Below, piece by piece: positions 9,222 through 41,353 of a stretch of 64,000 bases of DNA. The position numbers were made by a program, and so were the translations under genes. The first letter of the stretch is position 1. Each line of letters starts with the position of its first letter. The DNA lies in contig NC_015185.1 in the NCBI RefSeq assembly GCF_000191045.1, positions 1,246,501 through 1,310,500 on the forward strand. The letters are read 5' to 3'. The notes under the pieces are model-generated. The model ran no database searches. It was given only the letters and a program-made list of their open reading frames with translations, and was not told the origin of the DNA. This DNA is from Desulfurobacterium thermolithotrophum DSM 11699 (GTDB lineage Bacteria; Aquificota; Aquificia; Desulfurobacteriales; Desulfurobacteriaceae).

Positions 9222-9289
9222 TTAATTTGACTAAAATTGATAAAATAATTGAAAGTGAAGTGCGAGAACGCAGACAGAAGGAGAAAAGA

Positions 9290-10621
9290 ATGGTTAGAAA
9301 AATTTACGATTTTCTGAGCTCTGTAAAGCTTGCTATATTCTTTCTTCTGACTCTTGCTGTTACTTCAATAATCGGAACTATCATAGAACAACAGCAAGAC
9401 CCAGATAAGTATCTAAGGGAATATGGAGAAACTACTTATAAAATCTTTAAATTTTTAGGTTTTACCGATGTTTATCACTCTTGGTGGTACATTCTCCTTT
9501 TAATGCTCCTAGCAATTAATCTTATTGTTTGTTCCATTAAAAGACTTCCAAAAATATGGAAAGTTGCAAAAGAACCAAGAAAAACCTTTCCGGAAGGTTA
9601 TGAAAAAACATTAAAAGTTGTCCACAAAATAACTCTTGCTGGAGATATTAAAGAAATAAAGAATTCTGTTATTGACTCCTTAAATAAACTTCGTTATAAA
9701 CCAGAAGTTTCAAAAGAAGATGAAGAAGAAATTCATGTTTTTGCAGACAAAAACGTCTTCGCAAGGTTTGGAGTTTATATTGTTCACTTTGGAGTTTTGT
9801 TAGTCCTTATCGGTGGACTTCTTACTGCTGTCTTTGGCTATAGAGGTTACATGAATCTTGCTGAAGGAACCAGTAGTAACTTAGTTAGTTTTTTCAGTAG
9901 TCCTAAAATTATCGAACTTCCTTTCTCTATAAAATGTAATAAGTTCTTCATAGACTTTTATCCATCAGGTATGCCTAAAGCTTACATATCTGACCTTTCA
10001 GTAATTGAAAATGGAAAAGAAGTCTACAGGAAAAAAATAAGGGTTAACGATCCTCTAAAATACAACGGTGTTTACTTTTATCAGGCAAGTTACGGACAGG
10101 GAGTAGCAACTCTTCAAATAAAAGAAGGAAATAAAACAAAAACTGTTGAAATTGCATTTGGACAACCCATTGAACTATCACAAAACACATTTTTAAGAAT
10201 TGTTAGTATTGATGGAAATACTTTAGCAATGGGAGTAGAGTTTATACAAAACGGAAAAGTAAGAGCTGGAGTAATACAACCATTTAACTTTTTCAAAGTT
10301 CCAGGAACAGATATTGTCTTCTCTGTAGTCGATGTAAAACCTGCTTTTTATACAGGTCTTCAAGTTGCTAAAGATCCCGGAACGTGGGTTGTTTGGGTTG
10401 GAAGTACTATACTTATCCTTGGTTTAATAGTTGCTTTCTTTATTCCTCACAGAAGAGTCTGGACAAGAATAAAGAAAGGAAAAGAAGGAAAAGTAACATT
10501 AGTTATTGGAGGAATGACAAATAAGGGTACTGAAGGCCTTGCAACTGAATTAGAAGAGGTCTTAGGGGTACTAAAGTCTTCATACTGCCCAAATACCCCT
10601 AAGGAGGAAAACGATGGTTAA
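9290..10621 (+). CDS. resB: Cytochrome c biogenesis protein ResB/Ccs1
   Basis: 443 residues. Four membrane segments are visible: two near the N-terminus (about 10-31 and 66-85), one at about 161-185 and one near 375-395, with a large extracytoplasmic domain between the last two, the standard ResB plan. With CcsA it forms the system II heme export and ligation machine for c-type cytochromes. I prefer the ATG at 9290, preceded by AAGGAG, over an in-frame TTG at 9227 that has no SD. The charged C-terminal tail after the last membrane segment is about 45 residues. It overlaps ccsA by 8 nt. Confidence 0.9.
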   Translation: MVRKIYDFLSSVKLAIFFLLTLAVTSIIGTIIEQQQDPDKYLREYGETTYKIFKFLGFTDVYHSWWYILLLMLLAINLIVCSIKRLPKIWKVAKEPRKTFPEGYEKTLKVVHKITLAGDIKEIKNSVIDSLNKLRYKPEVSKEDEEEIHVFADKNVFARFGVYIVHFGVLLVLIGGLLTAVFGYRGYMNLAEGTSSNLVSFFSSPKIIELPFSIKCNKFFIDFYPSGMPKAYISDLSVIENGKEVYRKKIRVNDPLKYNGVYFYQASYGQGVATLQIKEGNKTKTVEIAFGQPIELSQNTFLRIVSIDGNTLAMGVEFIQNGKVRAGVIQPFNFFKVPGTDIVFSVVDVKPAFYTGLQVAKDPGTWVVWVGSTILILGLIVAFFIPHRRVWTRIKKGKEGKVTLVIGGMTNKGTEGLATELEEVLGVLKSSYCPNTPKEENDG

Positions 10622-11621
10622 TTCCGTAACTCTTTTTAACACAGGGATGGTGGCTTTTTCTCTTGCATTCCTTTTCTACACCATTCATACTTTTTCAAAG
10701 AGCTCCTGGTCTGGAAAACTTGGAACCTATCTTGCTTGGCTTGGAGTTCTTGTTCAGGGAGCAGCGTTTATTGTAAGAGGAATAGAAAAAGCTAAAGTTA
10801 ATATGGTTTCAGATTGGACAGCCTTTTATAAGTATGCTCCCTTTACAAATATGTACGAATCTCTTATGCTCTTTGGTTGGATGGCAGTTCTTTTGTATTT
10901 GCTTTTTGAATGGAAGTATAAGAACAAGGCATTTGGAATGTTCATCATTCCACTAGCATTAATGGGAGAACTTTCAACTCAAATACTAGGATTTGATGAA
11001 GAAGCTCAACCTCTTGTTCCAGCACTTCAAAGTAACTGGCTTCTCTTTCACGTTGTTACAACATTTGTAGGATATGCGGCAGCCGCTGTTAGTGCTGGAA
11101 TTGCTTATGCATACTTTGCAAGAAGAAACGATACAACAGGAAAGGATTGGACAGTAATCTTTGTTACAACATGGTTTATTTTCTTCTTTGTTATATACTC
11201 TGCTTTTAGAGAAAATGTTTTCTTCTTCTTATTTGTTTCCGCTGCCGTAGCAGCTGCTTTCTGTGCTTTTCTTTACCTTCTTAATAGATACGGAATTTCA
11301 AAAATCTTTCCTTCTCCTGAAACAATGGAACAAATAATGTACCAATCTGTAGCAGTTGGATTTGTCTTTTTAACAATTGGTATTATCCTTGGAGCTGTCT
11401 GGGCTAAGTACGCATGGGGCGGATACTGGTCATGGGATCCAAAAGAAACTTGGTCGTTAATCACTTGGCTTGTTTATGCGGCATATCTCCATGCAAGATA
11501 CATTAAAGGACTTTCTGGTAAACCTTTAGCCTACTTCACAATAATTGGTTTCTTAAGTGTCATCTTCACTTACTATGGTGTTAACCTTATTATCCCGGGT
11601 CTTCACAGCTATGCACAATAG
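10614..11621 (+). CDS. ccsA: Cytochrome c biogenesis protein CcsA (ResC)
   Basis: 335 residues with about eight hydrophobic segments and the tryptophan-rich heme-binding WWD motif (WGGYWSWDPKETW) in an external loop near the C-terminus. Conserved histidines appear before the motif (FHVVTTFVGY) and after it (LHARY, GLHSYA). CcsA presents heme to apocytochrome c together with ResB, encoded just upstream with an 8-nt overlap; SD AAGGAGG lies in the resB tail. A strong terminator follows. Confidence 0.93.
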   Translation: MVNSVTLFNTGMVAFSLAFLFYTIHTFSKSSWSGKLGTYLAWLGVLVQGAAFIVRGIEKAKVNMVSDWTAFYKYAPFTNMYESLMLFGWMAVLLYLLFEWKYKNKAFGMFIIPLALMGELSTQILGFDEEAQPLVPALQSNWLLFHVVTTFVGYAAAAVSAGIAYAYFARRNDTTGKDWTVIFVTTWFIFFFVIYSAFRENVFFFLFVSAAVAAAFCAFLYLLNRYGISKIFPSPETMEQIMYQSVAVGFVFLTIGIILGAVWAKYAWGGYWSWDPKETWSLITWLVYAAYLHARYIKGLSGKPLAYFTIIGFLSVIFTYYGVNLIIPGLHSYAQ

Positions 11622-11630
11622 AAAAACTTA

Positions 11631-11656
11631 AGGTTACCCTTTGGGTAACCTTTTTT
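11631..11656 (+). terminator. Rho-independent terminator after resB-ccsA
   Basis: A 9-bp perfect stem AGGTTACCC / GGGTAACCT with a TTT loop, followed immediately by six T residues. It closes the cytochrome c biogenesis unit and separates it from yihY, whose promoter starts a few bases later. Confidence 0.92.
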
Positions 11657-11665
11657 ATATTGAGA

Positions 11666-11671
11666 TATAAT
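11666..11671 (+). promoter_or_regulatory. -10 element placed for a leaderless transcript (yihY)
   Basis: TATAAT, then seven T residues, then the ATG at 11679. No Shine-Dalgarno sequence can be found before this ATG. The spacing places the transcription start at the start codon. The -35 is unclear because the terminator of ccsA occupies that region. Confidence 0.5.
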
Positions 11672-11678
11672 TTTTTTT

Positions 11679-12488
11679 ATGATTTGTAAAAAACTTTTAA
11701 CAAATAGATCTTTTCTTAGGTATATCCTTTATTCTCTATGTGATGCTGTAGAAAGAGACTACCCTTTTTATGCAGCATCTATTGCTTATTACACATTAGT
11801 TTCAATCATTCCTCTTTTCATATTTCTTTTCTTTCTTGGTATGACAGTTTTTCAAATAGACTTTGAAAGTCTAATTCCAAAAGAATTTTTTAATTCACCT
11901 CTAAAGCCAATTTTTCTTCAAATTGAGCAAGTTATGAATAAATCCGGATTAATAAGTGGAACTGCAGCTATCGTAATGTTATGGTTTTCTAGAGGTATTT
12001 TTCTTTCTTTGGAAAAATCTTTTTGTGAAATTCTCGAAGTTGAAAATTTAGCAGGTTTTTTTTATAGAAATCTTGCTGTCATTCTTGCAATTTTCCTCTT
12101 ATGGATTTTCATGTTTGTTTTTTATCTTGCTAAATATCTGATTGCTGCACTGCTACCACAAATTCCTATCCTTTCTATCCTATCTTCTCTTTTGGTTCCA
12201 ATTCTACTATTTGCTATCTTAATTAGCATGTATTACTTCCTTCTACCTATAAAGATACGATTTAACTTTATTTTTAAAATTTCAACTTTTGTTTTCCTTT
12301 TATTGACAGTTTTCGAAAAAATATTTATTTGGTTTATTTTTAATGTCTCTAAAGTCAGTATTCTTTATAGTTCCTTTGCAGCTATTATCATTTTTCTTTT
12401 ATGGATTTATTATTCTGCAATAGTAATATTAATTGGCGTCGGTATAGTAAGAGCTAAACTAATTATGGAAGAGGAGTTGAAGAGATGA
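11679..12488 (+). CDS. YihY/BrkB-family inner membrane protein
   Basis: 269 residues with about six hydrophobic segments. The N-terminal [20 protein letters not shown] and the C-terminal [16 protein letters not shown] are typical of the YihY/virulence factor BrkB family, long misnamed ribonuclease BN. Function in the family is not established; transport has been proposed. The stop overlaps the panC ATG (ATGA). Confidence 0.85.
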
Positions 12489-13339
12489 AAATTGTTAAAA
12501 AAGTTAAGGAAATGAGGGCTATTTCTTCAGCTTTAAGAAGAATTGGAAAAAGGATAGGGTTTGTTCCCACCATGGGATATCTGCATGAAGGACACCTTAG
12601 TCTTGTAAAATGCGCAAAAAAGGAAAATGACATTGTAGTTATGAGTATTTTTGTCAACCCAACTCAATTTGGTCCAAATGAAGACTTTGAAAGATACCCC
12701 CGAGACTTAGAGAGAGATTCAAAAATAGCTAAGGCTGAAGGAGTTGATTATCTTTTTATTCCTGAAGTTTCCGAAATGTATCCAGAAGGATATTCTACTT
12801 ATGTAGAAGTTGAAGGTTTAACTGAAGTCCTATGCGGTGCTAAAAGACCAGGACATTTCAAAGGAGTTGCAACAGTTGTTACAAAGCTCTTTAACATTGT
12901 TCGTCCTCATAAAGCTTACTTTGGAAAAAAGGATTTTCAACAGTTAAAAGTTATAGAACGCCTTGTAAAAGATCTTAATTTCGATATAGAAATTGTAGGT
13001 TGTCCTATAGTAAGAGAAGAAGACGGACTTGCAAAGAGCTCTAGAAACGTCTATCTCTCACCTGAAGAAAGAAAGTCAGCACTTTCTCTTTACAGATCTT
13101 TAAAGATTGCAAAAGAGCTCTTTGAAAAAGGAATAAAAGATGCGAAAATAGTAAAAAAAGAAATGGAAAAGTTCATAATGTCACATCCTCATGTTAAAAA
13201 AATTGACTACATCGAAATTGTTGACTCAAACTCTCTTAAATCTGTAAAATCAGTAAAAAGAGGTAACTTAATAGCTCTTGCTGTTTTTGTAGGTAACACA
13301 AGGCTTATTGATAACTGGGTAGTGGGAGAGGAGCTATAA
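12485..13339 (+). CDS. panC: Pantothenate synthetase
   Basis: 284 residues, normal length. ATP-binding motif [14 protein letters not shown], pantoate-binding [33 protein letters not shown] and the KSSRNVYLS loop are all present. It joins pantoate and beta-alanine using ATP to form pantothenate for coenzyme A. SD GAAGAGG is in the preceding reading frame, and a 4-nt ATGA overlap couples it to yihY. Confidence 0.97.
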
Positions 13340-13350
13340 AGGAGGTTTGA

Positions 13351-13752
13351 ATGGTCTATGAAATTTCTTTAAAAACAACGGGAAGAACTCAACTTGTAGA
13401 CATAACCCGTCAGGTTGAATCAATTGTTTTACAATCGGGAATTACAAAGGGAATTTGCATAGTTTACGTTCCTCATACGACTGCTGGGGTTACAATAAAT
13501 GAAAATGCAGATCCTTCCGTAAAGAAAGATATAAAGTCAATGCTTGATAAATTAATTCCATGGAGAGAATCTTTTTACGAACATGCCGAAGGTAACTCTG
13601 CTGCTCATATAAAATCTTCGCTTTTGGGTTGCAGTCAAACTGTCATAATTAATGACGGAAAACTTTTACTTGGAACATGGCAAGGTATTTACTTTTGTGA
13701 ATTTGATGGTCCAAGAACAAGAAAAGTTTATGTAAAAGTTATTGAAGGTTAG
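13351..13752 (+). CDS. YjbQ family protein (UPF0047)
   Basis: 133 residues, the full length of this small trimeric family. Conserved HTTAGVTINENADPSV, HAEGNSAAHIKSSLLG and LLLGTWQGIYFCEFDGPR are intact, including the three histidines that bind metal in solved structures. Some members have thiamine phosphate synthase side activity; the physiological role is unsettled. Strong SD AAAGGAGG 5 nt before ATG, 11 nt after panC. Confidence 0.9.
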   Translation: MVYEISLKTTGRTQLVDITRQVESIVLQSGITKGICIVYVPHTTAGVTINENADPSVKKDIKSMLDKLIPWRESFYEHAEGNSAAHIKSSLLGCSQTVIINDGKLLLGTWQGIYFCEFDGPRTRKVYVKVIEG

Positions 13753-13778
13753 TCAAATATTAGTTAGAAATTAGTTAT

Positions 13779-14104
13779 GGAGCAGGCGTGTAAGCCGGGT
13801 TCTGTTTAAAGGGGTCATTTATCTTATGCGGCTTACCCGCTGGCTTCGGACGGGCAACCCTCAAACGCCAGCCTATTTAGCCTTGCTCCGGGAGGGGGTT
13901 ACCGTGCCTCTTTCCCTCACGGGAAAGAGCGGTGGTCTCTTACACCACCTTTTCACCCTTACCACCTTATAGGTGGCGGTATGTTTTCTGTGGCCCTATC
14001 CGTGAGGTTACCCTCACCTGGCTTAACGCCAGCTCCCTGCCCTGTGGAGCCCGGACTTTCCTCTCGGAGGACTAAACCCTCCGAGCGACCCCGCAGCCTG
14101 CTCC
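13779..14104 (-). ncRNA. rnpB: RNase P RNA, bacterial type A-like
   Basis: About 326 nt. Reading the minus strand, the RNA starts GGAGCAGGC and ends GCCTGCTCC, a perfect 9-bp P1 helix. Near the 5' end is the universal GAGGAAAGTCCGGGCTCC and near the 3' end ACAGAACCCGGCTTA, which together form the P4 helix and catalytic core. Internal GC-rich hairpins (for example around 13913-13930 and 13965-13980) are as expected. It processes the 5' ends of pre-tRNAs. Known Aquifex lacks this RNA, so its presence places the organism outside that lineage. It follows the thiamine-binding-type gene by 24 nt and converges with yjbQ; no clear terminator is visible. Confidence 0.95.
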
Positions 14105-14128
14105 ACTATAAATTTAATCTGTTATCTG

Positions 14129-14443
14129 TTATTTGCTAACCTCTTTTTTCAGTTTACTCTCAACCGATTTTATCTTTTGAACCATTCTGTCACTTTTACC
14201 TTTTCTAATGTCAAACTTCACAACAGAATAAACTCTATTACAGTCTGCTTCTAGCTGCTGATATGCCCTTTTTATCAGCTCAAGCGCTTCCTCCATAGTC
14301 TCAGTTTCAAAAACTGTTCCCATAGGGGTAAGCTTATACGGAATACCGCTTTCATCTATCATTTTTATAATTCTTGTAACATACGGACTTACACTTTCTC
14401 CCTTATCTGTTGGAAACATGGCAAACTCTACAAGCACAGACAT
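14129..14443 (-). CDS. MTH1187/YkoF-type thiamine-binding protein
   Basis: 104 residues. The start MSVLVEFAMFPTDKG and the core YKLTPMGTVFETETMEEAL match the MTH1187 family (UPF0045), small ferredoxin-fold proteins that bind thiamine or related ligands. No other thiamine gene is adjacent apart from the YjbQ family gene across rnpB, which is a loose link at best. SD AAGGAGG before ATG. Confidence 0.82.
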   Translation of the reverse strand: MSVLVEFAMFPTDKGESVSPYVTRIIKMIDESGIPYKLTPMGTVFETETMEEALELIKRAYQQLEADCNRVYSVVKFDIRKGKSDRMVQKIKSVESKLKKEVSK

Positions 14444-14467
14444 TTCTTCCTCCTTGCGATTAAGTTC

Positions 14468-16927
14468 TTAACCTACTTCTACAAAATCAAACTTTTCTCC
14501 AAATCTAAATCTCATTAATTCTTTAAGGTCGTTTAACCCTTCAAGCTCTGGATTTCTTTCTACAAGTTTTTGGGCTTCTTCTCTTGCTATTTTCAGAATC
14601 TCAAAATCCCTCCTTAAATCAGCAATCTTAAAGTCTCCAAGCCCTGACTGTCTCGTTCCAAAAATTTCTCCAGGCCCTCTAAACTGAAGATCAGCTTCTG
14701 CAATCTTGAAACCATCATTTGTTGACTCAAGAACCCTTAACCTTTTTATTGAATCTTCACTTATGCTTCTTTTTGTAATAAGAAAGCAATAAGATTGCCT
14801 ATTTCCTCTTCCAACTCTACCTCTAAGCTGGTGAAGCTGTGCAAGCCCAAAGCGTTCAGCATGTTCTATAACCATGACCGTTGCCTCTGGAACGTCAACA
14901 CCAACTTCAATAACAGTAGTTGAAACAAGAACTTGATACTCTCCTCTTTTGAATTTTTCCATAATCTCGTCTTTTTCTTCTTGTTTCATCTTACCATGGA
15001 GAAGTCCAACTGAATAGGGTTTAAGCTTTTTTTCCCAGTAATGATGCATTTCAGTGGCTGCTTTGAGTTCTAACTTTTCAGACTCTTCTATAAGCGGATA
15101 TACTATATAAACTCTATTTTTCATCTTTAATTCTTTTAGAAGAAATCTTACTAGAGTATCTCTTTCATCTTCAAATAAAATCTTTGTCTTAATAGGTTTT
15201 CTTCCTGCTGGAAGTTCATCTATAACCGAAATATCAAGATCTCCGTAAGCTGTCATTGCAAGGGTTCTTGGAATTGGAGTTGCGGTCATTACCAAAACAT
15301 CTGGCAATTTTCCTTTTTTCTTAAGTTCTACTCTTTGCTTTACTCCAAATCTATGCTGTTCATCTATTATTGCTAATCCAAGATTTTTAAATTCAACAGT
15401 TTCCTGAATTAGAGCATGAGTTCCAACTACCACTTGAATAAACCCTTCTTTTATTGCTCTATACATCGTTTCTTTTTCTTTTTTTGTCATACTACCAGTA
15501 AGAAGTCCAACTTTTATGCTAAAAGGTTTCAAAAATTCTCTAAACTTTTTAAAGTGCTGGTTTGCTAGAATTTCTGTTGGAGCCATAACTGCTGTCTGAT
15601 AACCACTTTTTGCAGCAAAAAAGGCTGCTGCTGCTGCAACAACCGTTTTACCACTTCCAACATCTCCCTGTACAAGTCTGTTCATCGGTTCATCTTTTTT
15701 CATATCTTCCATTATTTCTCTTAAGACTTTTTCTTGAGCATTAGTTAAACTGAATGGGAGAGCTTTTTTAAACTCATCCACCAATTCTTTCTTAACTGGA
15801 AAAGCTATCCCTTTTTCTCCTTTTATCTTCTGTTTGTGGAGAGCTAGAGCAAGCTGAAAGAGAAAAAGCTCATCAAAAATTACCCTCTTTTGAGATGGAG
15901 TTTTGAAATTTAAGAGGTCCTGTGCATCTTCATCAAATGGAAAGTGTACCCTCCAAAAAGCTGTAGCAATATCAGGAAAAGAGTATCTTTTAAGCAATTC
16001 TTGGGGTAAATATTCAGGCAAAAAGGGAATTACTCTCTTAACAATATTTCCAATATCCTTTCTTATAGTCGATTGTTTTATACCCTCAGATGAATGATAA
16101 ACAGGTAGAATCACTCCAAGTTTTTCAAGTTTTCCCCTATTTTTATCAAAAATTTCAACTTCAGGATGAACCATTGAGTAACTGCCCATTTCTCTTTTTA
16201 CAATTCCATATGCAAGGACTTCTTTTTCAAGCTCCTTTGCCTTTGAAAAGAGCATTTTATAGTAGTTAAGGACTCTTTCTTGAAGAAATATTAAAGTAAC
16301 TGTTCCGGTCTTGTCGTATAAGATAACTTTTAAGATTTTCTTTTTTTTCTTTGAAGTTTCAATAACTAATACATTTACTACTTTCCCCTTAACCAAAAAA
16401 ACTTGACCGGGTTTTAAAAAACTCATAGGAGTAATAGTTGTTCTATCTTCATATCTAAAAGGAAGATAGTAGATAGCATCTAGGATTGTTTCTATGCTTA
16501 GCTTTTTAAGTCTTTCAACAGTTTTCTTTTTAATACCCTTGATAGTCGAAATTGGCTGAAAAAAGGCCTTTATAGGATATGTCTTCTTTCTTTCAAATTT
16601 TTCCTGACTAGAAAATATTCTCTCTCTAGGAATTTCTTCTTTTCTGGCTTTTTCTATTTCTTCTTCAGAGAATTTAAGGAGTATGACAGAGTGAAGCTCT
16701 TTAAAAAACCTTTTTTTCTGCTCTTTTGTAAAAGAATCGTAATTTTCAAAAAGTTTTAAGACCTTTGAAACCCATAACTTTCTTTTCCTATCAAGATGAG
16801 GATAGAGCTCTTTTAAAAGATTAGAAACAGTTTTATCCGGATTTTTGATTCTCTCAAAGTATTTAAAATCATCTTGAACAATAAGATTTAATAAATCCTT
16901 CAATCTCCTTAGTAGTTTTCTCATCAA
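14468..16927 (-). CDS. recG: ATP-dependent DNA helicase RecG
   Basis: 819 residues, longer than the roughly 690 of Escherichia coli; the extra is an N-terminal region of about 110 charged residues, as in RecG of Aquifex and Thermotoga. Then the wedge (OB) domain, helicase motif I GDVGSGKT, motif II DEQHRFG, motif III TATPIPRT, motif VI QLRGRVGRG and the C-terminal TRG region. RecG remodels stalled forks and Holliday-type junctions. It diverges from the TPR lipoprotein gene across a 105-bp AT-rich gap. Confidence 0.96.
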   Translation of the reverse strand: MMRKLLRRLKDLLNLIVQDDFKYFERIKNPDKTVSNLLKELYPHLDRKRKLWVSKVLKLFENYDSFTKEQKKRFFKELHSVILLKFSEEEIEKARKEEIPRERIFSSQEKFERKKTYPIKAFFQPISTIKGIKKKTVERLKKLSIETILDAIYYLPFRYEDRTTITPMSFLKPGQVFLVKGKVVNVLVIETSKKKKKILKVILYDKTGTVTLIFLQERVLNYYKMLFSKAKELEKEVLAYGIVKREMGSYSMVHPEVEIFDKNRGKLEKLGVILPVYHSSEGIKQSTIRKDIGNIVKRVIPFLPEYLPQELLKRYSFPDIATAFWRVHFPFDEDAQDLLNFKTPSQKRVIFDELFLFQLALALHKQKIKGEKGIAFPVKKELVDEFKKALPFSLTNAQEKVLREIMEDMKKDEPMNRLVQGDVGSGKTVVAAAAAFFAAKSGYQTAVMAPTEILANQHFKKFREFLKPFSIKVGLLTGSMTKKEKETMYRAIKEGFIQVVVGTHALIQETVEFKNLGLAIIDEQHRFGVKQRVELKKKGKLPDVLVMTATPIPRTLAMTAYGDLDISVIDELPAGRKPIKTKILFEDERDTLVRFLLKELKMKNRVYIVYPLIEESEKLELKAATEMHHYWEKKLKPYSVGLLHGKMKQEEKDEIMEKFKRGEYQVLVSTTVIEVGVDVPEATVMVIEHAERFGLAQLHQLRGRVGRGNRQSYCFLITKRSISEDSIKRLRVLESTNDGFKIAEADLQFRGPGEIFGTRQSGLGDFKIADLRRDFEILKIAREEAQKLVERNPELEGLNDLKELMRFRFGEKFDFVEVG

Positions 16928-29962: not shown

Positions 29963-31051
29963 ATGACCCAAGATGAAAAGTTTATGAAACTTGCTATTAG
30001 CGAAGCTTATAAAGCTAAAGGGAGAACCCTTCCTAATCCTGCAGTTGGGGCTGTTATAGTTAAAGATGGCAAAGTAATAGCAACAGGTTATCATGAAAGA
30101 GCTGGACTTCCCCATGCAGAAAGCGTAGCAATAAGTAAAGCGGGGGAGAAAGCAAAAGGAGCAACCCTTTATGTAACTCTCGAACCCTGCAACCACTATG
30201 GGAAGACTCCCCCCTGTTCAGAAAAAATAATAAAAGCAGGAATAAAAAGAGTTGTGGTTGGAATTAGAGATCCAAATCCTGTTGCTAGAGGGGGAGTTGA
30301 AAAATTAAAAAATGCAGGAATAGAAGTAAAGGTTGGAGTTCTTGAAAAAGAGTGTTTTGAACTTATAGATGATTTTATCGTTAATTTAAAGGAAAAACGC
30401 CCTTTTGTTTCCTTAAAACTTGCAGCAACACTTGATGGAAAAATTGCAGATTATAAGGGAAATTCCAAGTGGATAACTTCCGAAGAATCGCGAAAACTTG
30501 TCCATATTCTAAGAAGCTATCACAACGCTGTAATGGTTGGAATTGGAACAGTTCTAAAAGATGACCCTTTGCTTAACGTTAGAAAAGTTCCGGCGGATGT
30601 TCAACCAAAAGCAATAGTTGTTGATCCCCACTTAAAAATTCCTCTAAGTTGCCGATTAATAAAAAGTAGAAGTGAAGACTTGATAATTATCACTACAAGG
30701 GAAAGTATGCTTTCTGATAAAGCTTTAATTTTAAAAGGAAAAGGGGTTAAACTACTAGAAGCAGGTGAAAATTCTATTGAACTTAAGATTGCTTTGGAGA
30801 AGTTGAAAGGAGAGTTCGGTATTTACTCAGTTATGTGTGAAGGTGGTTCAAAGTTAGCGTGGAGTTTGTTAGAAGGGAATTTAATTGACAAATTCTATTT
30901 ATTTTACGCTCCTAAAATTTTGGGTGGAAAGGGAATGTCAATGTTTGATGGTAGCTTTTCGATAGAGGATGCTCATCAAATCAGGCTCTTCTCGATCAAT
31001 AGTGTGAGTAATGATTTACTAATTAAAGCTTACAGGGTAGAGGCAATATAA
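29963..31051 (+). CDS. ribD: Bifunctional riboflavin biosynthesis protein RibD
   Basis: 362 residues. Deaminase half with HAESVA and PCNHYGKTPPC (zinc ligands), reductase half with SLKLAATLDGKIAD, GIGTVLKDDPLLNVR and CEGGSKLAWSLL. It converts the GTP-derived pyrimidine to the ribitylamino intermediate. No FMN riboswitch is seen in the 52-nt gap upstream. The stop overlaps the ATG of the next gene (TAATG), tying it to the start of the flagellin modification island. Confidence 0.95.
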   Translation: MTQDEKFMKLAISEAYKAKGRTLPNPAVGAVIVKDGKVIATGYHERAGLPHAESVAISKAGEKAKGATLYVTLEPCNHYGKTPPCSEKIIKAGIKRVVVGIRDPNPVARGGVEKLKNAGIEVKVGVLEKECFELIDDFIVNLKEKRPFVSLKLAATLDGKIADYKGNSKWITSEESRKLVHILRSYHNAVMVGIGTVLKDDPLLNVRKVPADVQPKAIVVDPHLKIPLSCRLIKSRSEDLIIITTRESMLSDKALILKGKGVKLLEAGENSIELKIALEKLKGEFGIYSVMCEGGSKLAWSLLEGNLIDKFYLFYAPKILGGKGMSMFDGSFSIEDAHQIRLFSINSVSNDLLIKAYRVEAI

Positions 31052-31863
31052 TGAAACTGAGTACTACAGGAAATGCTGAAAGAAATCTGCTTTACATTCC
31101 TAAGAATATAAAAAAACTAGAAGAAAAAAAGTACAGTTTAGGAAGGGAACTTTTGAAGGACGGTATTCCTAGAGGAACTACCTACTTTATTGCTGCGGAA
31201 AGAATAAAAAATGAAAGCAAAGTTTTAGAAGTAGGCTGTTCTTATGGTTATTTTGGTAAGCAACTAAAGAATTTAAAACAGGTAAATATAGTTGGAATAG
31301 ATATTGATAGAAAAGCTTTAGCTGAAGCTAAAAAAACAGGTGCTTATGATACATTGTTAGAGATGAATTTAGAATCTTTCCAATCTCTTTATGAGTTAAA
31401 AAATAGATACTATGAAAGCTTCGATACTATTTTGTGTTTAGATGTTTTAGAACATATAAGAAATATAAATGAACTTTTTTTGACTTTAATTTCTTTGCTG
31501 AAACCCAAAGGGGAACTAATAGTAAGTATTCCTAACATAGGACATTTAGACATTATTTACAATCTATTAATTGGAAGATTTAATTATTCTCTTCTAGGAA
31601 TACTTGATAACACTCATCTAAGGTTCTTTACTGAAGATTCTTTTAGGGACTGGATTCAGATTATATCTGAAGATAACGAGTTGAACTTACAAGTAGAGTT
31701 GATTGGACAAACATTCTCAGATCGGATAGAACTATCTGGAGAGTTGGATGATAATCTACAAGAGTATGTAATAAAGAAGCTGATTTCAATGAGTAAAAAA
31801 GTGAACAATAAAAATTTATTTGTCGTTCAAAATTTGTTCTCAGTTAGGAGATATAATGGGTAA
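31051..31863 (+). CDS. SAM-dependent methyltransferase (class I)
   Basis: 270 residues. SAM-binding motif I VLEVGCSYGYFGKQL (about 54-68), acidic strand VGIDIDRKAL and post-motif DTILCLDVLEHI. Such enzymes in glycosylation islands methylate sugars. It starts one base inside the ribD stop and its 3' end overlaps the next glycosyltransferase by 8 nt, so it belongs to the same translated unit. Confidence 0.82.
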   Translation: MKLSTTGNAERNLLYIPKNIKKLEEKKYSLGRELLKDGIPRGTTYFIAAERIKNESKVLEVGCSYGYFGKQLKNLKQVNIVGIDIDRKALAEAKKTGAYDTLLEMNLESFQSLYELKNRYYESFDTILCLDVLEHIRNINELFLTLISLLKPKGELIVSIPNIGHLDIIYNLLIGRFNYSLLGILDNTHLRFFTEDSFRDWIQIISEDNELNLQVELIGQTFSDRIELSGELDDNLQEYVIKKLISMSKKVNNKNLFVVQNLFSVRRYNG

Positions 31864-32632
31864 CAAAAAGGGAATAAGTTTGTTAATTCCTACTTATAAC
31901 CGACCTCATTTCCTCCGTAGAGCTCTCATTTCTGTCTTGAATCAGACTAGACTTCCCGATGAAATAATAATTTCCGATGATAACCCTCATTCCACTGAAA
32001 ACTTCGAGGCAATTAAAGACTTGGTAGAACAATACAAAGGACTGATAAAATATTGGAAAAATAATGAAAGGTTAGGTGTAGAAAAGAATTATTCCAAGTT
32101 ATTAGAAGAAGCAAATTATGAGTATATAAAGTTTCTTGCAGATGATGATCTGTTGCATCCAGAAGCCTTAGAACTAATGGAAAAAGTCCTAAACAAGTAT
32201 GAAGATGTTGTTCTTGTTTCCTCTCACAGAATTCCTGTCAACGAAGAAGAAGAGTTTATTCATGGCATAGAAGCTACTAAACCTTTATGTAAGAAAGATC
32301 AAATCCTAAATGGAAAAGAAGTAATAAGAAAATCTCTAACTGATTTAAAAAACTACGTAGGAGAGTTTTCAACCTATATGTTTAGAAAATCTCTTCTTGA
32401 TATAAATCCTTTTTACTTTTGCAACTTACATTTTAGAGCAAACGCGGACTGGGTTTTATGGATGTATTTATTGTCAAAAGGTAATTTTTTTTACTACTCT
32501 CGTCCTTTATCTTTCTTTACTATTCATTCTCAACAAGATCAAGCTAATTTAAAAGTTCAAACTCTAGGATTTAAAGAACGTATTAAACTTATTCTTAATG
32601 AAGAACTTCACAAAACACTTAAATTTTTTTAA
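31856..32632 (+). CDS. Family 2 glycosyltransferase (N-terminal part of a split gene?)
   Basis: 258 residues in GT-A fold: SLLIPTYNRPHFLRRAL, nucleotide-binding PDEIIISDDN and metal motif FLADDDLLHPEAL. Start at ATG 31856 with SD TTAGGAG; an in-frame start at 31820 is rejected because it lacks an SD. The stop comes directly after a run of seven T. In the -1 frame from that run the sequence continues without a stop as LTPKEKAKAIENL into the next glycosyltransferase, so this may be the first domain of a larger protein. Confidence 0.85.
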   Translation: MGNKKGISLLIPTYNRPHFLRRALISVLNQTRLPDEIIISDDNPHSTENFEAIKDLVEQYKGLIKYWKNNERLGVEKNYSKLLEEANYEYIKFLADDDLLHPEALELMEKVLNKYEDVVLVSSHRIPVNEEEEFIHGIEATKPLCKKDQILNGKEVIRKSLTDLKNYVGEFSTYMFRKSLLDINPFYFCNLHFRANADWVLWMYLLSKGNFFYYSRPLSFFTIHSQQDQANLKVQTLGFKERIKLILNEELHKTLKFF

Positions 32633-32667
32633 CTCCAAAGGAGAAAGCAAAAGCTATTGAAAATTTA
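32621..32667 (+). other. T7 tract with probable frameshift joining two glycosyltransferase frames
   Basis: AAATTTTTTTAA at 32621-32632 ends the upstream frame. The downstream frame is closed by TAA at 32620-32622 and open from 32623, so a switch is possible only inside the T run. The stretch between the run and the ATG at 32668 reads as sensible protein, and that ATG has no usable SD (AAGGAG lies 24 nt away). One more T would fuse both genes. Confidence 0.6.
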
Positions 32668-34752
32668 ATGACAGATTTTAAATATCTTAAACTTAAATTT
32701 TCTGAAAAAGAAAGAATTGAAATAATAAAGAACCTACTGGAAATTTATAAAAAGAGATTATCTAAATCAACCTCAAATGAAAAGTACATACGACCTCCTT
32801 TTTCTGTTATAGTCGTTACTCATAATTCTTTCTCGACTATAGAACCTTTATTTGCGTCTCTCAAAGCTTCTATAACTGATAGAGACGAAATAATAATTGT
32901 TGATAATGCCTCAAAAGATGAAACTCTTTCTTTAGTTGAAAAATTTACAGAAGAAAACAATATTAAGAATATAAAAATTTTAAGCCTTAAAGAAAACATA
33001 GGCTATGCAGCAGCGATAAATAAGGGAGTAAAGATATCTAAACATAACTATCTTGCTTTTGTTAATCCCGATACTGTCCTTCCAAACAATTGGATTACTA
33101 TTGTTTACGAACATCTCAAAGAAAAACAGGTTGGAGCAGTAGGTGCAATTTCAAATTATGTTATTGATTTTCAAAATATACTAAGATTTTCCAACCTTGC
33201 TAAAATTCTTAAAGATGAAGACTTCTGCAGATATGTAAACTTGATTAACGAACACTTAAGAAATCTATACAAAGGGCAATTTGAGGAGAAAAATTTTCTT
33301 GTTGGTTTCTTCTTAGCAACTAAGAAAGAAGTTTTTAAGGAAGTTGGTAAGTTTGATAAAGAACTCTTTTTGGGAATGGATGATCTAGACTACTCTTTAA
33401 AATTAAGAGAACACGGATATAAACTTATTCTCCCTAAAGATCTTTTTATTTATCATCAAGGACATGTATCTTTTAAAAAGAATAAAGAAGCCGAGAAACT
33501 CAAAGAATTAACAGAAAATACATTTGCAGAAAAACTAGTTAAAAAATATGGATTTGGAAAAGTTCCTCTTCCTGAGAAACTTTGGGCTGATAAAGATGCA
33601 ATTTATTTTGCAGCTTTTGTACCAACAAACCCTAAATATAGGTTTATGTTCAAGTTTTTAGATAAGGATATAGATTTCCGTCATGTAGCTCAAGAAATTT
33701 TAAGAAAACCAAAAATTGGAATTGTCACTGTTACTTACTTTTCTTCTAACGATATATATATTATGGCAAAAAGTTTATTCAATTCGACTTATCAAAATTT
33801 TCATTGGTACATTATAGATCATTCCGAAGACAAAGAAGAATTTGAACGTTTAAAGAAATCAGTTTCAATTTTGTCTAAAGAGAAAATAACAGTAATAAAT
33901 AGAAAAAATTCTGGTTACGCAGCAGGTATAAATTTTGGTACTAACTTAGCTCTCAAAGATAGCTGCGAATATATTTGGATTTTAAATCCAGATGTAGAAG
34001 TAGAATCAAACACACTTTTAGAACTTTTAAAAACCTCTTTATTTACTGGAGTTCCTGTTGTAACCTGTAAAATGAAAGATTCTTTGGAAAGAGATAAACT
34101 TCAATACGATGGATTTAAAGCTAATTATAGACCTTTTTCAGATTATCCTCAAAGAATACGTAAGGTTTTCTTCCTATCCGGAGCTAATATATTTTTAAAA
34201 TCAGATGTAGTTAAAAAGATAAAATTTAATGAAAATTATTTTCTCTATTTTGAGGACAACGATTTTCATGAAAAATTACAGAAGATAGGTATTGAACCCA
34301 TTTATACTCCGTATGCTACTATTTATCACAAAAATAAAAACGAGACCTTTCCGAATTCTCCTATAGAAGTTTACTATTTTTACAGAAATCTAATTTATTT
34401 CTTTAAAAGAAAAGCAGATTATCCCTTTATAATTAAAAATCTAAAATTTGCCTATGAGCACTTCTTTTCTAAAAAGAAAAATTTAAGAGCTCTAATTTCT
34501 GCAATTTACGATGGTACATTTAACATTTTAGGAAAAAAAGACCTTTCCTCTAAATTTCGTGCCTTAAAAGACGATAATAAAATTTTAAAGGAATATTTAC
34601 AACTTAGAAGGATAAGTAAGGTGCTTGCTCTTGAAAAAGGAAGAAATTATCTACTCCTAAAACCAAGACATTCCGAAATATTTTTTAAATATTTAAAAGA
34701 CGCTGTTTCTATCATGTTTTATTCGGAGGAAAGAAATGGAAGAAAAAGTTAG
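32668..34752 (+). CDS. Tandem family 2 glycosyltransferase (two GT-A domains)
   Basis: 694 residues from the ATG; open upstream to 32623. Domain 1 (about 45-290): VIVVTHNSFSTIEPL, FVNPDTVLPNNW, GMDDLDYSLKLREHGY. Domain 2 (about 345-620): IGIVTVTYFSSNDIY, IWILNPDVEVESN, YFEDNDFHEKLQKIG. Both keep the DxD-like and ED motifs of rhamnosyltransferase-like GT2 enzymes. If joined to the preceding frame it would be a 950-residue protein with three GT2 domains. Its 3' end overlaps the next gene by 17 nt. Confidence 0.85.
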   Translation: MTDFKYLKLKFSEKERIEIIKNLLEIYKKRLSKSTSNEKYIRPPFSVIVVTHNSFSTIEPLFASLKASITDRDEIIIVDNASKDETLSLVEKFTEENNIKNIKILSLKENIGYAAAINKGVKISKHNYLAFVNPDTVLPNNWITIVYEHLKEKQVGAVGAISNYVIDFQNILRFSNLAKILKDEDFCRYVNLINEHLRNLYKGQFEEKNFLVGFFLATKKEVFKEVGKFDKELFLGMDDLDYSLKLREHGYKLILPKDLFIYHQGHVSFKKNKEAEKLKELTENTFAEKLVKKYGFGKVPLPEKLWADKDAIYFAAFVPTNPKYRFMFKFLDKDIDFRHVAQEILRKPKIGIVTVTYFSSNDIYIMAKSLFNSTYQNFHWYIIDHSEDKEEFERLKKSVSILSKEKITVINRKNSGYAAGINFGTNLALKDSCEYIWILNPDVEVESNTLLELLKTSLFTGVPVVTCKMKDSLERDKLQYDGFKANYRPFSDYPQRIRKVFFLSGANIFLKSDVVKKIKFNENYFLYFEDNDFHEKLQKIGIEPIYTPYATIYHKNKNETFPNSPIEVYYFYRNLIYFFKRKADYPFIIKNLKFAYEHFFSKKKNLRALISAIYDGTFNILGKKDLSSKFRALKDDNKILKEYLQLRRISKVLALEKGRNYLLLKPRHSEIFFKYLKDAVSIMFYSEERNGRKS

Positions 34753-35999: not shown

Positions 36000-36869
36000 A
36001 TGTGGATTGATGACATGGAAGTAACAATATATTCAAAATCAATAACTTCTTTTAAAAGAAAGAAATTTTTTAAAAGACTAAAAGAACAACTTAGCACTAA
36101 AAGATTAATTTTTACTGTAACAACAGGACGAAGTGGTACTGCCTATCTTTCTAAAATTTTTTCTCTTGTTCCTAATATTTCTGCATTTCATGAACCCGAA
36201 CCAAACTTTGTAGATGTAATGCGATTAGCTCTTGAAAAACCAGAATTGGCAGTAAAGTTTTGGGTACTTGAAAAACTTCCTTTTATTGCTAAAACTCCTC
36301 ACAATGTTTATTGCGAAACAAGTCACCTTTTTTGTAAAGGCTTCTTTTATCCTCTGATTGATTTAGGTTTTCTTCCTGAGTTAATTATCCTGAGAAGAGA
36401 AAAAAGAAAAGTAGCAAAAAGTTTGTTTGAACTCAATACAATTCCCGGCAAAACTTCCCTTGCTCTCTTGTACTATCTTAAACCAGATGATAAAGGAGTT
36501 TTCCTCCCTATCAAGGATTGGCAAAAACTTCACGACTATCAACTTTGCTATTGGTATTGTCTTGAAATAGAAAAAAGAATGGAAGTTTTCAAGAAAGAAG
36601 TTTTAAAAAGACATGGAAAAGTATACGATATAGAATTTTCACAGATATTGTGTTTTAATGGAGTTATGTCCTTAATTAAAAGTATGAATCTTCTTCCTTA
36701 CTCTAATTTTGAAGGCTTTGTAGAAATTTTAAATCAAGAAATAGGTAAAAAGGTAAACGAAAAAAAGGAAGAAAAAGTAAGAAAACTTGAAAAAGAACTC
36801 TCTACTTCTCAGATAGAAGAACTTGAAAAGGAAGTAGAAAACTTAGTAAATTATTCGGGGTACAAATGA
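36000..36869 (+). CDS. Sulfotransferase-like P-loop protein
   Basis: 289 residues. TVTTGRSGTAYLSKIF (about 39-54) matches the 5'-phosphosulfate-binding loop of PAPS-dependent sulfotransferases, and LIILRREKRKVAKSLFEL (about 129-146) the 3'-phosphate-binding arginine/serine motif. Family and location suggest sulfation of a flagellin glycan, but no PAPS synthesis gene is in the window. The start is uncertain: ATG 36000 and ATG 36015 both lack a clear SD. It overlaps the next gene by 4 nt (ATGA). Confidence 0.65.
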   Translation: MWIDDMEVTIYSKSITSFKRKKFFKRLKEQLSTKRLIFTVTTGRSGTAYLSKIFSLVPNISAFHEPEPNFVDVMRLALEKPELAVKFWVLEKLPFIAKTPHNVYCETSHLFCKGFFYPLIDLGFLPELIILRREKRKVAKSLFELNTIPGKTSLALLYYLKPDDKGVFLPIKDWQKLHDYQLCYWYCLEIEKRMEVFKKEVLKRHGKVYDIEFSQILCFNGVMSLIKSMNLLPYSNFEGFVEILNQEIGKKVNEKKEEKVRKLEKELSTSQIEELEKEVENLVNYSGYK

Positions 36870-38327: not shown

Positions 38328-39188
38328 ATGGCTCTAAGAATTAACTACAACTACCAGTCAGATTTTACACATTTTAACTTGCTTCAAACAGAAGCAAACA
38401 TGAATAAGTCTCTTGAAAGACTTGCTACAGGTTATAGAATTAATAGAGCAGCCGACGATGCTGCTGGTCTTTATATCGCAGACCAACTTAAAACGTATGC
38501 AGTATCTCTTGAACAAGCAACAAGAAATGCTCATGATGGTATTTCAATAGCTCAAATTGCTCAATCTGCTCTTACTAATGTATATAACATTCTCAATGAT
38601 ATTAAAGCAAAAGCAATTGAAGCTGCTAACGATTCACAAGATAGTGCAACAAGGCAAATTATTCAGCAAGACATTAACAAACTCGTAGACGTTATCGGAA
38701 AAATATTTACAGACACAGAATTTAACGGTATAAACGTTTTTAGCTCAGGAACTGCCGTGACATTTACTATACATTATGGTGGTAGATCCGGTCAGGAACT
38801 TTTAATGCAAGGTGCAACAGCATCAGCTGCAGCTGCCGCTGACACAAGTGCTCCATCAACAATTACTTTAGGAAACACTGGATATACTTTAGATGTTACA
38901 AGCCAAACAAAAGCTGAAGCTACTATTAGTACTGTTGATGCTCTTATTAAAGAAGTAGATAAACTTAATGCAAAATATGGTTCTTACCAAATTGAACTAG
39001 AAAAACTCATTACAAATAATGAAAGCCAAAGAATTAACTCTCAAGAAGCAGAATCAAGAATTAGAAACGTTGACTTTGCTAAAGAAATGTCTGAATTTAC
39101 AAGAAATCAAATTCTCATGCAGTCTGGTACAGCTATGCTTGCTCAGGCTAACCAGCTTCCACAACTTGTTCTTCAGCTTCTTAGATAG
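38328..39188 (+). CDS. fliC: Flagellin
   Basis: 286 residues. D0/D1 N-terminus with NMNKSLERLATGYRINRAAD and GLYIADQLKTYAVSLEQA, short variable centre (about 140-200, rich in Ser, Thr and Ala), and the conserved C-terminus with SRIRNVDFAKEMSEFTRNQI and ending LPQLVLQLLR. The small centre lacks D2/D3 domains. Ser/Thr residues there are likely sites for the sugars made by the upstream genes. Strong SD AGAGGAGG. Followed by a hairpin. Confidence 0.95.
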   Translation: MALRINYNYQSDFTHFNLLQTEANMNKSLERLATGYRINRAADDAAGLYIADQLKTYAVSLEQATRNAHDGISIAQIAQSALTNVYNILNDIKAKAIEAANDSQDSATRQIIQQDINKLVDVIGKIFTDTEFNGINVFSSGTAVTFTIHYGGRSGQELLMQGATASAAAAADTSAPSTITLGNTGYTLDVTSQTKAEATISTVDALIKEVDKLNAKYGSYQIELEKLITNNESQRINSQEAESRIRNVDFAKEMSEFTRNQILMQSGTAMLAQANQLPQLVLQLLR

Positions 39189-39196
39189 TAAAATTC

Positions 39197-39225
39197 AAGG
39201 AAGGGAGCTAGCTCCCTTCCTTTAA
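39197..39225 (+). terminator. Hairpin after flagellin gene
   Basis: A perfect 12-bp stem AAGGAAGGGAGC/GCTCCCTTCCTT around TA, followed by only three T. It may terminate most transcription or stabilise the flagellin mRNA 3' end while allowing some read-through to flaG-fliD-fliS, for which no separate promoter was found. Confidence 0.75.
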
Positions 39226-39245
39226 CAGTACTTTAGAGGTTGGAA

Positions 39246-39614
39246 ATGGATGTTAAGCCTATAGCGGATGTGCAATCATCTATTCAAATGAATTCTCAAA
39301 ATTTGGAAGTTCAAAATCAAAAGTTAGTGGATAAACATGGAAATATAGACACAGTTAACATTCAAAAAGAAAAGGAAAAAGATAAATTATCTCCTGAACT
39401 CATAGAAAAAGTGATAGAAGATCTAAAGAAAAAATTATCAATGCTTAATACCCAGCTTCAAATAAAAATAGACAAAGATACAGATATAGTTGTTGTAAAA
39501 GTAATAGATAAAGAAACAAATAAAATTATAAGACAAATTCCTCCTGAGTATGTATTAAAAATAGCTAAATACCTAGATGAAATAGCAGGATTACTTTACA
39601 ATGAAAAAGCTTAA
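39246..39614 (+). CDS. flaG: FlaG family flagellar protein
   Basis: 122 residues. Disordered N-terminus, then the FlaG domain with LQIKIDKDTDIVVVKVID and IIRQIPPEYVLKIAKYL. FlaG influences filament length and sits between flagellin and fliD in many bacteria, as here. Start at ATG 39246 with SD GAGG six nt before it; an in-frame TTG two codons upstream is part of the spacer. Confidence 0.92.
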   Translation: MDVKPIADVQSSIQMNSQNLEVQNQKLVDKHGNIDTVNIQKEKEKDKLSPELIEKVIEDLKKKLSMLNTQLQIKIDKDTDIVVVKVIDKETNKIIRQIPPEYVLKIAKYLDEIAGLLYNEKA

Positions 39615-39626
39615 AAGGAATAGATT

Positions 39627-40970
39627 ATGGCTGGGGAAATCTATATTAGTAATTTAGCTGGAACGTTTGATTATCAGCAAATACTGGATGCTTATTATCA
39701 AGCTCAGATGCAACCGATTTTACTACTTCAAAGCCAAGAAAGTACTTTAGATAAAAAGATCTCAGCTCTTCAAAGTTTTGCTAGTAAAATAGATGACATA
39801 TATAATGCCTTTAATACTTTAACTTCTTCTACTCTTTTAGATGAAAAGCAGGTGGTAGTATCTAACGAAAACGTACTTACAGCAACTATAACTGATTCGG
39901 CAGCAGCAATTGAAGGAAATGTAACGGTTGATGTAAAACAACTAGCCAAGAATGATGTTTGGCTTTCTCAGGCTGGAGTTGCAGACCTATCCTCTGCTGT
40001 TGCTACTGCCGACGGTACTATTCAAATCTCGTATGCAGGAAGTGTTGTCGCTACTATAGATTATGATACTAATACTTCCGATTCTACAAAACCTTCGACT
40101 TTACAGGAAATCGCAACTGCAATAAATAATGCCCAAAGTGTAGTTAAAGCATCTGTTATCTTTGACGGTTCCAGTTACAGACTTCTTTTAAGCGGTGCTG
40201 ATACAGGAAGCAGTAATGTAATTTCTATAGATGAAACAGGAACGGGTGATTTATTAGATCAACTTCAGCTGGGAACTAACTATACAACAAGTCATGTTCA
40301 AACAGCTCAAGACGCAGTAGTATCAATTTACGGTTCAGATATTAGTAGTTCTACAAATACTTTTAGTAATGCCATTCCTGGCGTTCAATTTACCGTAAAA
40401 CAGGAAAATACTTCTGCAACTATTTCCGTTGAGAAAAATTATCAACCTTTTAAAGATGCTTTAGATCAATTCATTTCATCTTACAACGCACTTGTAGATT
40501 TTGTTCAAACAGAAGGCGGTAAAGATGGAAGTTTATCTGGAGAAACAACCTTACAGTTTATAAGATCTGGAATTCTTTCAAGAATGCAACCACTTTTAAA
40601 CTTGGGAATTTTTTCCGTTGATAAAGACACAGGACACATCTCAGTAGACACTACTAAACTCGACGAGATGCTAAACAATTCTCCTACTACTGTATCTCAG
40701 GTCATTAGCGATCTTAAAACATCATTATATGATTACCTACTTTATCTCAAAGATCCTAGAGGTCCTGTTGAAAGCAAAGAAACCAGTTTAAATAATCAGA
40801 AAACGCTTTTGGAAGATCAAATAGGAAACATGCAAAAACTTATTAATTCTCAAATAGAACTATTTAAGCAGCAGTTAATTCAAGTTCAACTTCTTCAAGA
40901 AGAAATGAATCAGATAAAGGCAAAACTTACATCAACATTTGGAACTACTTCTATTTTACCATCAAACTAG
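39627..40970 (+). CDS. fliD: Flagellar hook-associated protein 2 (filament cap)
   Basis: 447 residues. N-terminal coiled region with ILLLQSQESTLDKKISALQ, central domains, and C-terminal coiled coil with SLNNQKTLLEDQIGNMQK, as in FliD. It forms the cap that guides flagellin assembly. SD AAAAGGAA. Order flagellin-flaG-fliD-fliS is standard. Confidence 0.94.
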   Translation: MAGEIYISNLAGTFDYQQILDAYYQAQMQPILLLQSQESTLDKKISALQSFASKIDDIYNAFNTLTSSTLLDEKQVVVSNENVLTATITDSAAAIEGNVTVDVKQLAKNDVWLSQAGVADLSSAVATADGTIQISYAGSVVATIDYDTNTSDSTKPSTLQEIATAINNAQSVVKASVIFDGSSYRLLLSGADTGSSNVISIDETGTGDLLDQLQLGTNYTTSHVQTAQDAVVSIYGSDISSSTNTFSNAIPGVQFTVKQENTSATISVEKNYQPFKDALDQFISSYNALVDFVQTEGGKDGSLSGETTLQFIRSGILSRMQPLLNLGIFSVDKDTGHISVDTTKLDEMLNNSPTTVSQVISDLKTSLYDYLLYLKDPRGPVESKETSLNNQKTLLEDQIGNMQKLINSQIELFKQQLIQVQLLQEEMNQIKAKLTSTFGTTSILPSN

Positions 40971-40990
40971 ATAAGGAAAGGAGCGGATAA

Positions 40991-41353
40991 ATGTCTTTTA
41001 ATCCCTATTTAAAAATGCAGGTTGAAACAGCCTCGCCTGTTGAACATGTCATTCTTCTTTACGAAAAAGTAATAGTACTTCTTAAAGAAGTTGACGATTG
41101 TATAAGTAAGAGTGATGTTCAGGGAAAGATTAATGCAATTGTTAAAGCAGAAAGAATTATTAGAGTTTTGAATGATTCATTGGATATGGAAAATGGAGGA
41201 GATATAGCAAAAAATCTTAGAGATTTATATGAATTTATTCTTCATTCTTTAGTTATTATAAATGCTAAAAATGATCAAAAGCTTCTAAGTGACGTTATCT
41301 ACATTTTAGAAACCTTGAAGGAAGGATGGGAAGGAATAAAAAACAAAGTTTAA
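40991..41353 (+). CDS. fliS: Flagellin export chaperone FliS
   Basis: 120 residues, four-helix protein: NPYLKMQVETASPVEHVILL, LLYEKVIVLLKEVD-like helix, and KAERIIRVLNDSLDMENGGD. It binds the flagellin C-terminus before export. SD AAAGGAG before ATG. Its end overlaps the next small gene by 28 nt. Confidence 0.93.
   Translation: MSFNPYLKMQVETASPVEHVILLYEKVIVLLKEVDDCISKSDVQGKINAIVKAERIIRVLNDSLDMENGGDIAKNLRDLYEFILHSLVIINAKNDQKLLSDVIYILETLKEGWEGIKNKV

Follow-up and report, generated by a model that had tools for sequence, protein, structure and literature searches.

A three-domain glycosyltransferase gene near the flagellin gene of Desulfurobacterium thermolithotrophum, probably interrupted by the loss of one base in an A/T stretch

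Do two adjacent glycosyltransferase (GT2) reading frames that meet at a run of seven T's (T7) encode two proteins or one, and, if one, what has parted them? The question arises for a locus of strain BSA-T (DSM 11699), lying within a 64,000-nucleotide stretch of the genome that we analyzed as a whole (the window). The initial annotation had proposed that one extra T, or -1 slippage in transcription or translation, would give a single protein of some 950 residues with three GT2 domains, and that phase variation might be involved. Comparison with relatives strongly supports a single gene, in this phylum of about 970 codons and with three GT2 domains (tri-GT2), and the pair of ORFs should be regarded as a single, disrupted gene for three domains. 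Overall, the case is one of an ordinary disrupted gene, or of a reference error, in an otherwise conserved enzyme of a flagellar locus.

The layout at the break is as the initial annotation had described it. The upstream GT2 frame ends straight after T7 (32624-32630, with AAA at 32621-32623 directly 5' of it), reading ...CAC AAA ACA CTT AAA TTT TTT TAA. The -1 frame is closed just 5' of the run by a TAA at 32620-32622. From 32623 on it is open and, passing through IFLTPKEKAKAIENL and M (32668), stays free of stops until 34752. It thus leads into the next GT2 ORF, whose ATG has no Shine-Dalgarno (SD) sequence at normal spacing, AAGGAG at 32638-32643 being 24 nt off. An SD is present at the ATGs of 31856 (AGGAG) and 34736 (GGAGG), and an SD-like motif precedes the first start of 217 of 353 sampled long ORFs. 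Pfam identified one GT2 domain in the upstream frame and two GT2 stretches in the downstream frame, with matches of both parts to PF00535 (E = 1.7e-23 and 1.6e-38, respectively). The first GT domain covers aa 8-176 of 258 and the next starts about 60 codons past the break; since the break sits in the linker that follows this domain, it leaves every domain whole on one piece or the other, and with these intact the two pieces might partly still function.

Table 1. Features of the locus discussed in the text (positions are those of the window).
Feature	Position	Strand	Basis
Disrupted gene, first part: frame of 258 aa with one GT2 domain, stop TAA 32630-32632	31856..32632	+	ORF, Pfam, alignment
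In-frame T8 of this gene, exceeding the run at the break in length	32485..32492	+	Run count
AAATTTTTTT, site of the one-base loss in comparison with relatives	32621..32630	+	Homology passes from frame 0 to the -1 frame here, ungapped
-1 frame, 15 codons upstream of the first ATG: IFLTPKEKAKAIENL	32623..32667	+	Aligns with IQLTSEEKAQAVENL of G002
Disrupted gene, second part: ORF of 694 aa with two GT2 stretches	32668..34752	+	ORF, Pfam, alignment
Flagellin, FlaG-like gene, FliD and FliS-like gene, downstream of the glycosyltransferase genes	38328..41353	+	Profile matches, order conserved in relatives
Single-frame three-GT2 orthologues: G002, G006, G009, G013, G008 and eight more distant phylum genomes			

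Frame layout alone proves little, because overlapping adjacent frames are common in this genome. We surveyed 464 kb, consisting of the window and 20 further stretches (L050-L069) and representing 30% of the genome, for adjacent same-strand pairs of overlapping frames with open stretches of at least 80 codons and a coding score above 15. This resulted in 192 pairs, 14 of them with a run of at least 6 in the overlap. The downstream start lay at least 12 nt past the stop in 21 of the 192 pairs, of which two hold an A/T run of at least 7 in the overlap, the window's break and a pair at L050 8628 that consists of two complete, unrelated genes. Among the 13 further run-bearing pairs, Pfam assigned different families to the halves in nine and no family to one or both sides in four, and in none did it place both halves in the same family. 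Of the remaining 178 pairs, whose overlaps contain no run of at least 6, two were also checked with Pfam, giving no families for L067 15905 and two different families for L057 14169. The window's break was the sole case of its kind seen in the survey. It coincides with an A/T run of at least 7, and by our arithmetic the 69 such runs of the window make up about 0.8% of its length. It is the homology to single-frame relatives that establishes a single gene.

An initial search of 41 near genomes, 25 of which gave some match, found five family members with one open frame of 967-978 aa. A profile built from the alignment of these five was run on 136 genomes of the phylum, with one genome per species and a match threshold of 1e-20. 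Matches were found in 35 genomes, 13 of which have the gene as one uninterrupted frame of 963-988 aa that spans the break. Among the others, the apparent split in G115 is a run of N, and the frame of G127 reaches the end of the fetched locus, which we took to be a contig end. The gene has decayed in G104, only its C-terminal part is present in G027 and a remnant is found in G005; the remaining matches were taken to be shorter paralogues. None of the 136 genomes contained an orthologue split at the window's break point. Two separate genes with a conserved start in relatives would have spoken against the proposed single protein; the opposite was found, and a join of the frames into one three-domain protein of about 950 residues agrees well with the single frame of the 13 relatives.

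The alignment places the break precisely. Of its 1071 columns, the first frame, covering the first third of the single-frame relatives, ends at column 285 and the second begins at column 284; with a -1 step, HKTL-KFF-LTPKEKAKAIENL matches HKTFGIQLTSEEKAQAVENL of G002 without a gap. The 15 codons ahead of the ATG at 32668 are thus homologous coding sequence rather than a spacer, and the ATG itself is not conserved, G002 having GCG and G006 ATA at the same position. The 13 relatives share 102 invariant columns, and the window agrees with them at 101: all 35 before the break and 66 of the 67 after it. In addition to domain order, it shares with G002 the gene order purC, trpS, ribD, methyltransferase, tri-GT2 and GT2-TPR, the first three being what we take these neighbors to be. 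The orthologues differ from the window in being uninterrupted and in having no run of at least 6 at the junction codons, where the window has a break and T7. Identity to G002 falls along 31051-34752 and on, from 94% in the methyltransferase through 82% in the first GT2 domain (and over the 258-aa frame) and 65% in the second and third (and over the 694-aa ORF) to 64% in the GT2-TPR gene.

The profile matched 34 solved structures at E of 1e-5 or better, which are other glycosyltransferases aligned over one or two domains. Of two scans of genome contigs, the first gave no match and the second only remote GT2 relatives. In a Thermodesulfobacteriota MAG (L085, 1133-5176), an open frame of 1347 codons matches residues 24-554 of the profile's first sequence, and multi-GT2 fusions of such type therefore occur outside the phylum. 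Among the papers listed by searches of an open-access library on flagellin glycosylation, on the genus or phylum and on tandem GT2 enzymes, we recognized none as describing this gene.

In comparison with the relatives, one base is missing from AAATTTTTTT. The ungapped join inside this stretch upholds the proposed one-base step in the tract but not that it is specifically a T, since the AAA and the T run could both have lost it; a column that reads I/V/Y/I/V across the five family relatives would agree marginally better with an A having been lost. The single likeliest account, with a probability of about 0.5, is a genuine and recent deletion in the sequenced strain, in which replication slippage, the simplest event for such a loss, would have removed a base from the A/T stretch. 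The first domain would then be translated up to TAA 32632, and the second and third domains would be made only via weak re-initiation at ATG 32668 or rare slippage; flagellin modification may suffer in strain BSA-T. That the break is nonprogrammed, real mutation and assembly error taken together, we consider highly probable.

We saw no other damage in the 950 codons. Relative-rate comparison with G002 gave 82:54 for the second part with G006 as the outgroup (p 0.02), which was not confirmed with G009 (42:39) or G013 (43:56), and 12:13 for the first part, while control genes gave 19:9, 3:6, 8:20 and 38:40. As the controls ran in both directions and the outgroups disagree, we do not claim a decay of the second part or relaxed selection. 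With the invariant columns kept and the rates lacking a consistent acceleration, the break is recent, harmless or absent from the chromosome.

The last of these options, that the chromosome is uninterrupted and the 454-led consensus dropped a base from the A/T stretch, which Illumina polishing did not correct, is the most serious alternative, though we hold it only tentatively. For this genome, here one contig of 1,541,968 bp, the genome report describes 282x Illumina and 40x 454 coverage with Illumina polishing, a stated error rate below 1 in 100,000 and 34 annotated pseudogenes (PMC3368423); given these figures, an error would be unsurprising, and so would a true pseudogene. The use of 454 data, a break exactly at a homopolymer stretch and the perfect preservation of the rest of the gene suit an error, and by our own arithmetic the published bound leaves room for up to about 15 of them. 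The authors of GeneTack expected BLASTp-validated singletons to be mostly sequencing errors (PMC3711429). We nevertheless lean slightly toward a real mutation over an uncorrected error in the 454/Illumina assembly: the reported Illumina coverage is deep and was used for polishing, longer runs (T8 and A8) were called in frame elsewhere, including the T8 of the same gene, no further break at a run of at least 6 was seen in the 464 kb, and the gene has naturally decayed or been lost in G104 and G005. The absence of other damage and of a consistent rate change would also be explained by an error. For a second strain, HR11, with an ANI of 95.9% to BSA-T, a genome sequenced independently with Illumina and Nanopore (CP176813) is reported, along with proteomics data deposited in PRIDE (PMC12724263, PMC7098903).

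A real break could also be leaky. RNA polymerase would insert an extra U at T7, and a few full three-domain transcripts would suffice; we regard this as unlikely. The proposal draws on work in Escherichia coli, where productive slippage is reported to need at least seven T's, a T7 upstream of a premature TAA showed 0.75% insertions and T7 and T8 reporters gave 5% and 10% of the control (PMC6260861). The mboIIM2 deletion mutant of that study shares with our locus the one-base deletion and the T7 just before a premature TAA; it is an engineered test gene in which slippage was measured, whereas the gene of the window is known here from its sequence. By analogy with the E. coli values, a trace of full-length enzyme might be made here. 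Slightly more doubtful is the fuller version, in which T7 would restore the frame in about 1 of 100 transcripts, giving mostly single-domain enzyme with a little of the three-domain form and so heterogeneous flagellin glycans, and the break would be tolerated for that reason.

The run content of the coding sequence bears on such a rescue in both directions. Compared with 20 shuffles of synonymous codons in the 464-kb sample, long runs were depleted (A9+ 0 observed and 54 expected, T9+ 1 and 20, T8 11 and 38, A8 43 and 79), the depletion was mild for T7 (57 and 91), and A7 showed none (236 and 242). This depletion argues that A/T runs of at least 8 are selected against and that T7 is near the limit of tolerance; slippage-prone runs seem to be under negative selection in the coding sequence of this thermophile, and slippage would thus have costs in the organism. 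In many genomes, however, selection is reported to start at a run length of nine (PMC1088944). Rescue also sits poorly with the lack of conservation of the site in relatives and with the lack of significant RNA structure in three stretches after the tract (z -1.06, -0.75 and -1.34 against shuffles). Were it true, a thermophile would offer a natural example of leaky slippage rescue at only seven T's; a full-length protein found despite the break would demonstrate that a short T run can restore the frame in such an organism, and annotated pseudogenes would need to be reexamined.

Phase variation, the initial suggestion, would have the length of the T run change reversibly and switch between the three-domain protein and two pieces. 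The surface-modification context suits it, and in Campylobacter jejuni genes for flagellin glycans are reported to vary in this manner (PMC3068675). The window shares with phase-variable genes such as Cj1295 a flagellar modification locus and a homopolymer-dependent frame, but the tracts there consist of 8-10 G/C and vary within and between strains, whereas the T7 here is unconserved and comes from one assembly. As a special switch, it is too short and too common. The window contains 24 T7, 36 A7, 6 T8 and 3 A8, and the 464-kb sample contains 169 T7, 183 A7, 28 T8 and 43 A8; the gene itself has the longer T8 at 32485. The hypermutable repeat expected to be conserved at a switch is found at the junction codons of none of the 13 intact relatives. 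Seven of these have an in-frame run of some kind within 60 nt of the junction, as expected for AT-rich genes. Judged by its sequence, the tract does not look like a kept switch, and we consider phase variation very improbable.

More improbable still is a fixed gene fission, with two genuine genes and the second translated by coupling or by re-initiation at ATG 32668. The break does fall between domains, the stop and the ATG are 35 nt apart and both parts are conserved. Two independent genes rank low, however, with homologous coding sequence directly ahead of an unconserved ATG that has no SD, and with no relative split at this point. Programmed -1 ribosomal frameshifting, the translational slippage of the initial annotation, was rejected, as the site has no X_XXY_YYZ heptamer (AAA TTT TTT TAA has an A before TTT TTT), no SD-like stimulator just 5' of the run and no RNA structure after it, and a conserved two-frame arrangement was seen in none of the 136 phylum genomes.

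Flagellin is encoded 3.6 kb downstream of the tri-GT2 gene, whose neighbors within the flagellin locus include GT2 and GT2-TPR genes. The best matches were 5.6e-55 for flagellin and 3.4e-36 for FliD, both below the curated cut-offs; the neighboring FlaG and FliS labels are our presumption. When stretches of 20 kb were read from 12 intact relatives (all but G101), five of them had a flagellin homologue there (G006, G013, G008, G128 and G100), and the contig of G002 ends before the place of flagellin. Since the gene lies beside the flagellin operon here and in several relatives, we assign it a putative role in flagellin glycosylation, which this context makes the most likely one.

Two relatives show the locus in other states. 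In G104 (L083, around 8480-15190), flagellin homology extends over three frames and that of FliD over two, the tri-GT2 gene is broken and FlaG has no match; the locus for flagellin glycosylation and the filament appears to have decayed as a whole, a joint loss that by its context speaks for the same putative role. In G005 (L084, around 10987-11931), a remnant of the last GT2 domain, spread over two frames, sits between replacement genes and next to a flagellin operon that is intact, and is a case of natural turnover of the enzyme in the family. In the window itself, neither Pfam nor NCBIfam gave a match for a further conserved gene of the locus at 36000-36869; on visual inspection, the start of this gene resembles a sulfotransferase P-loop.
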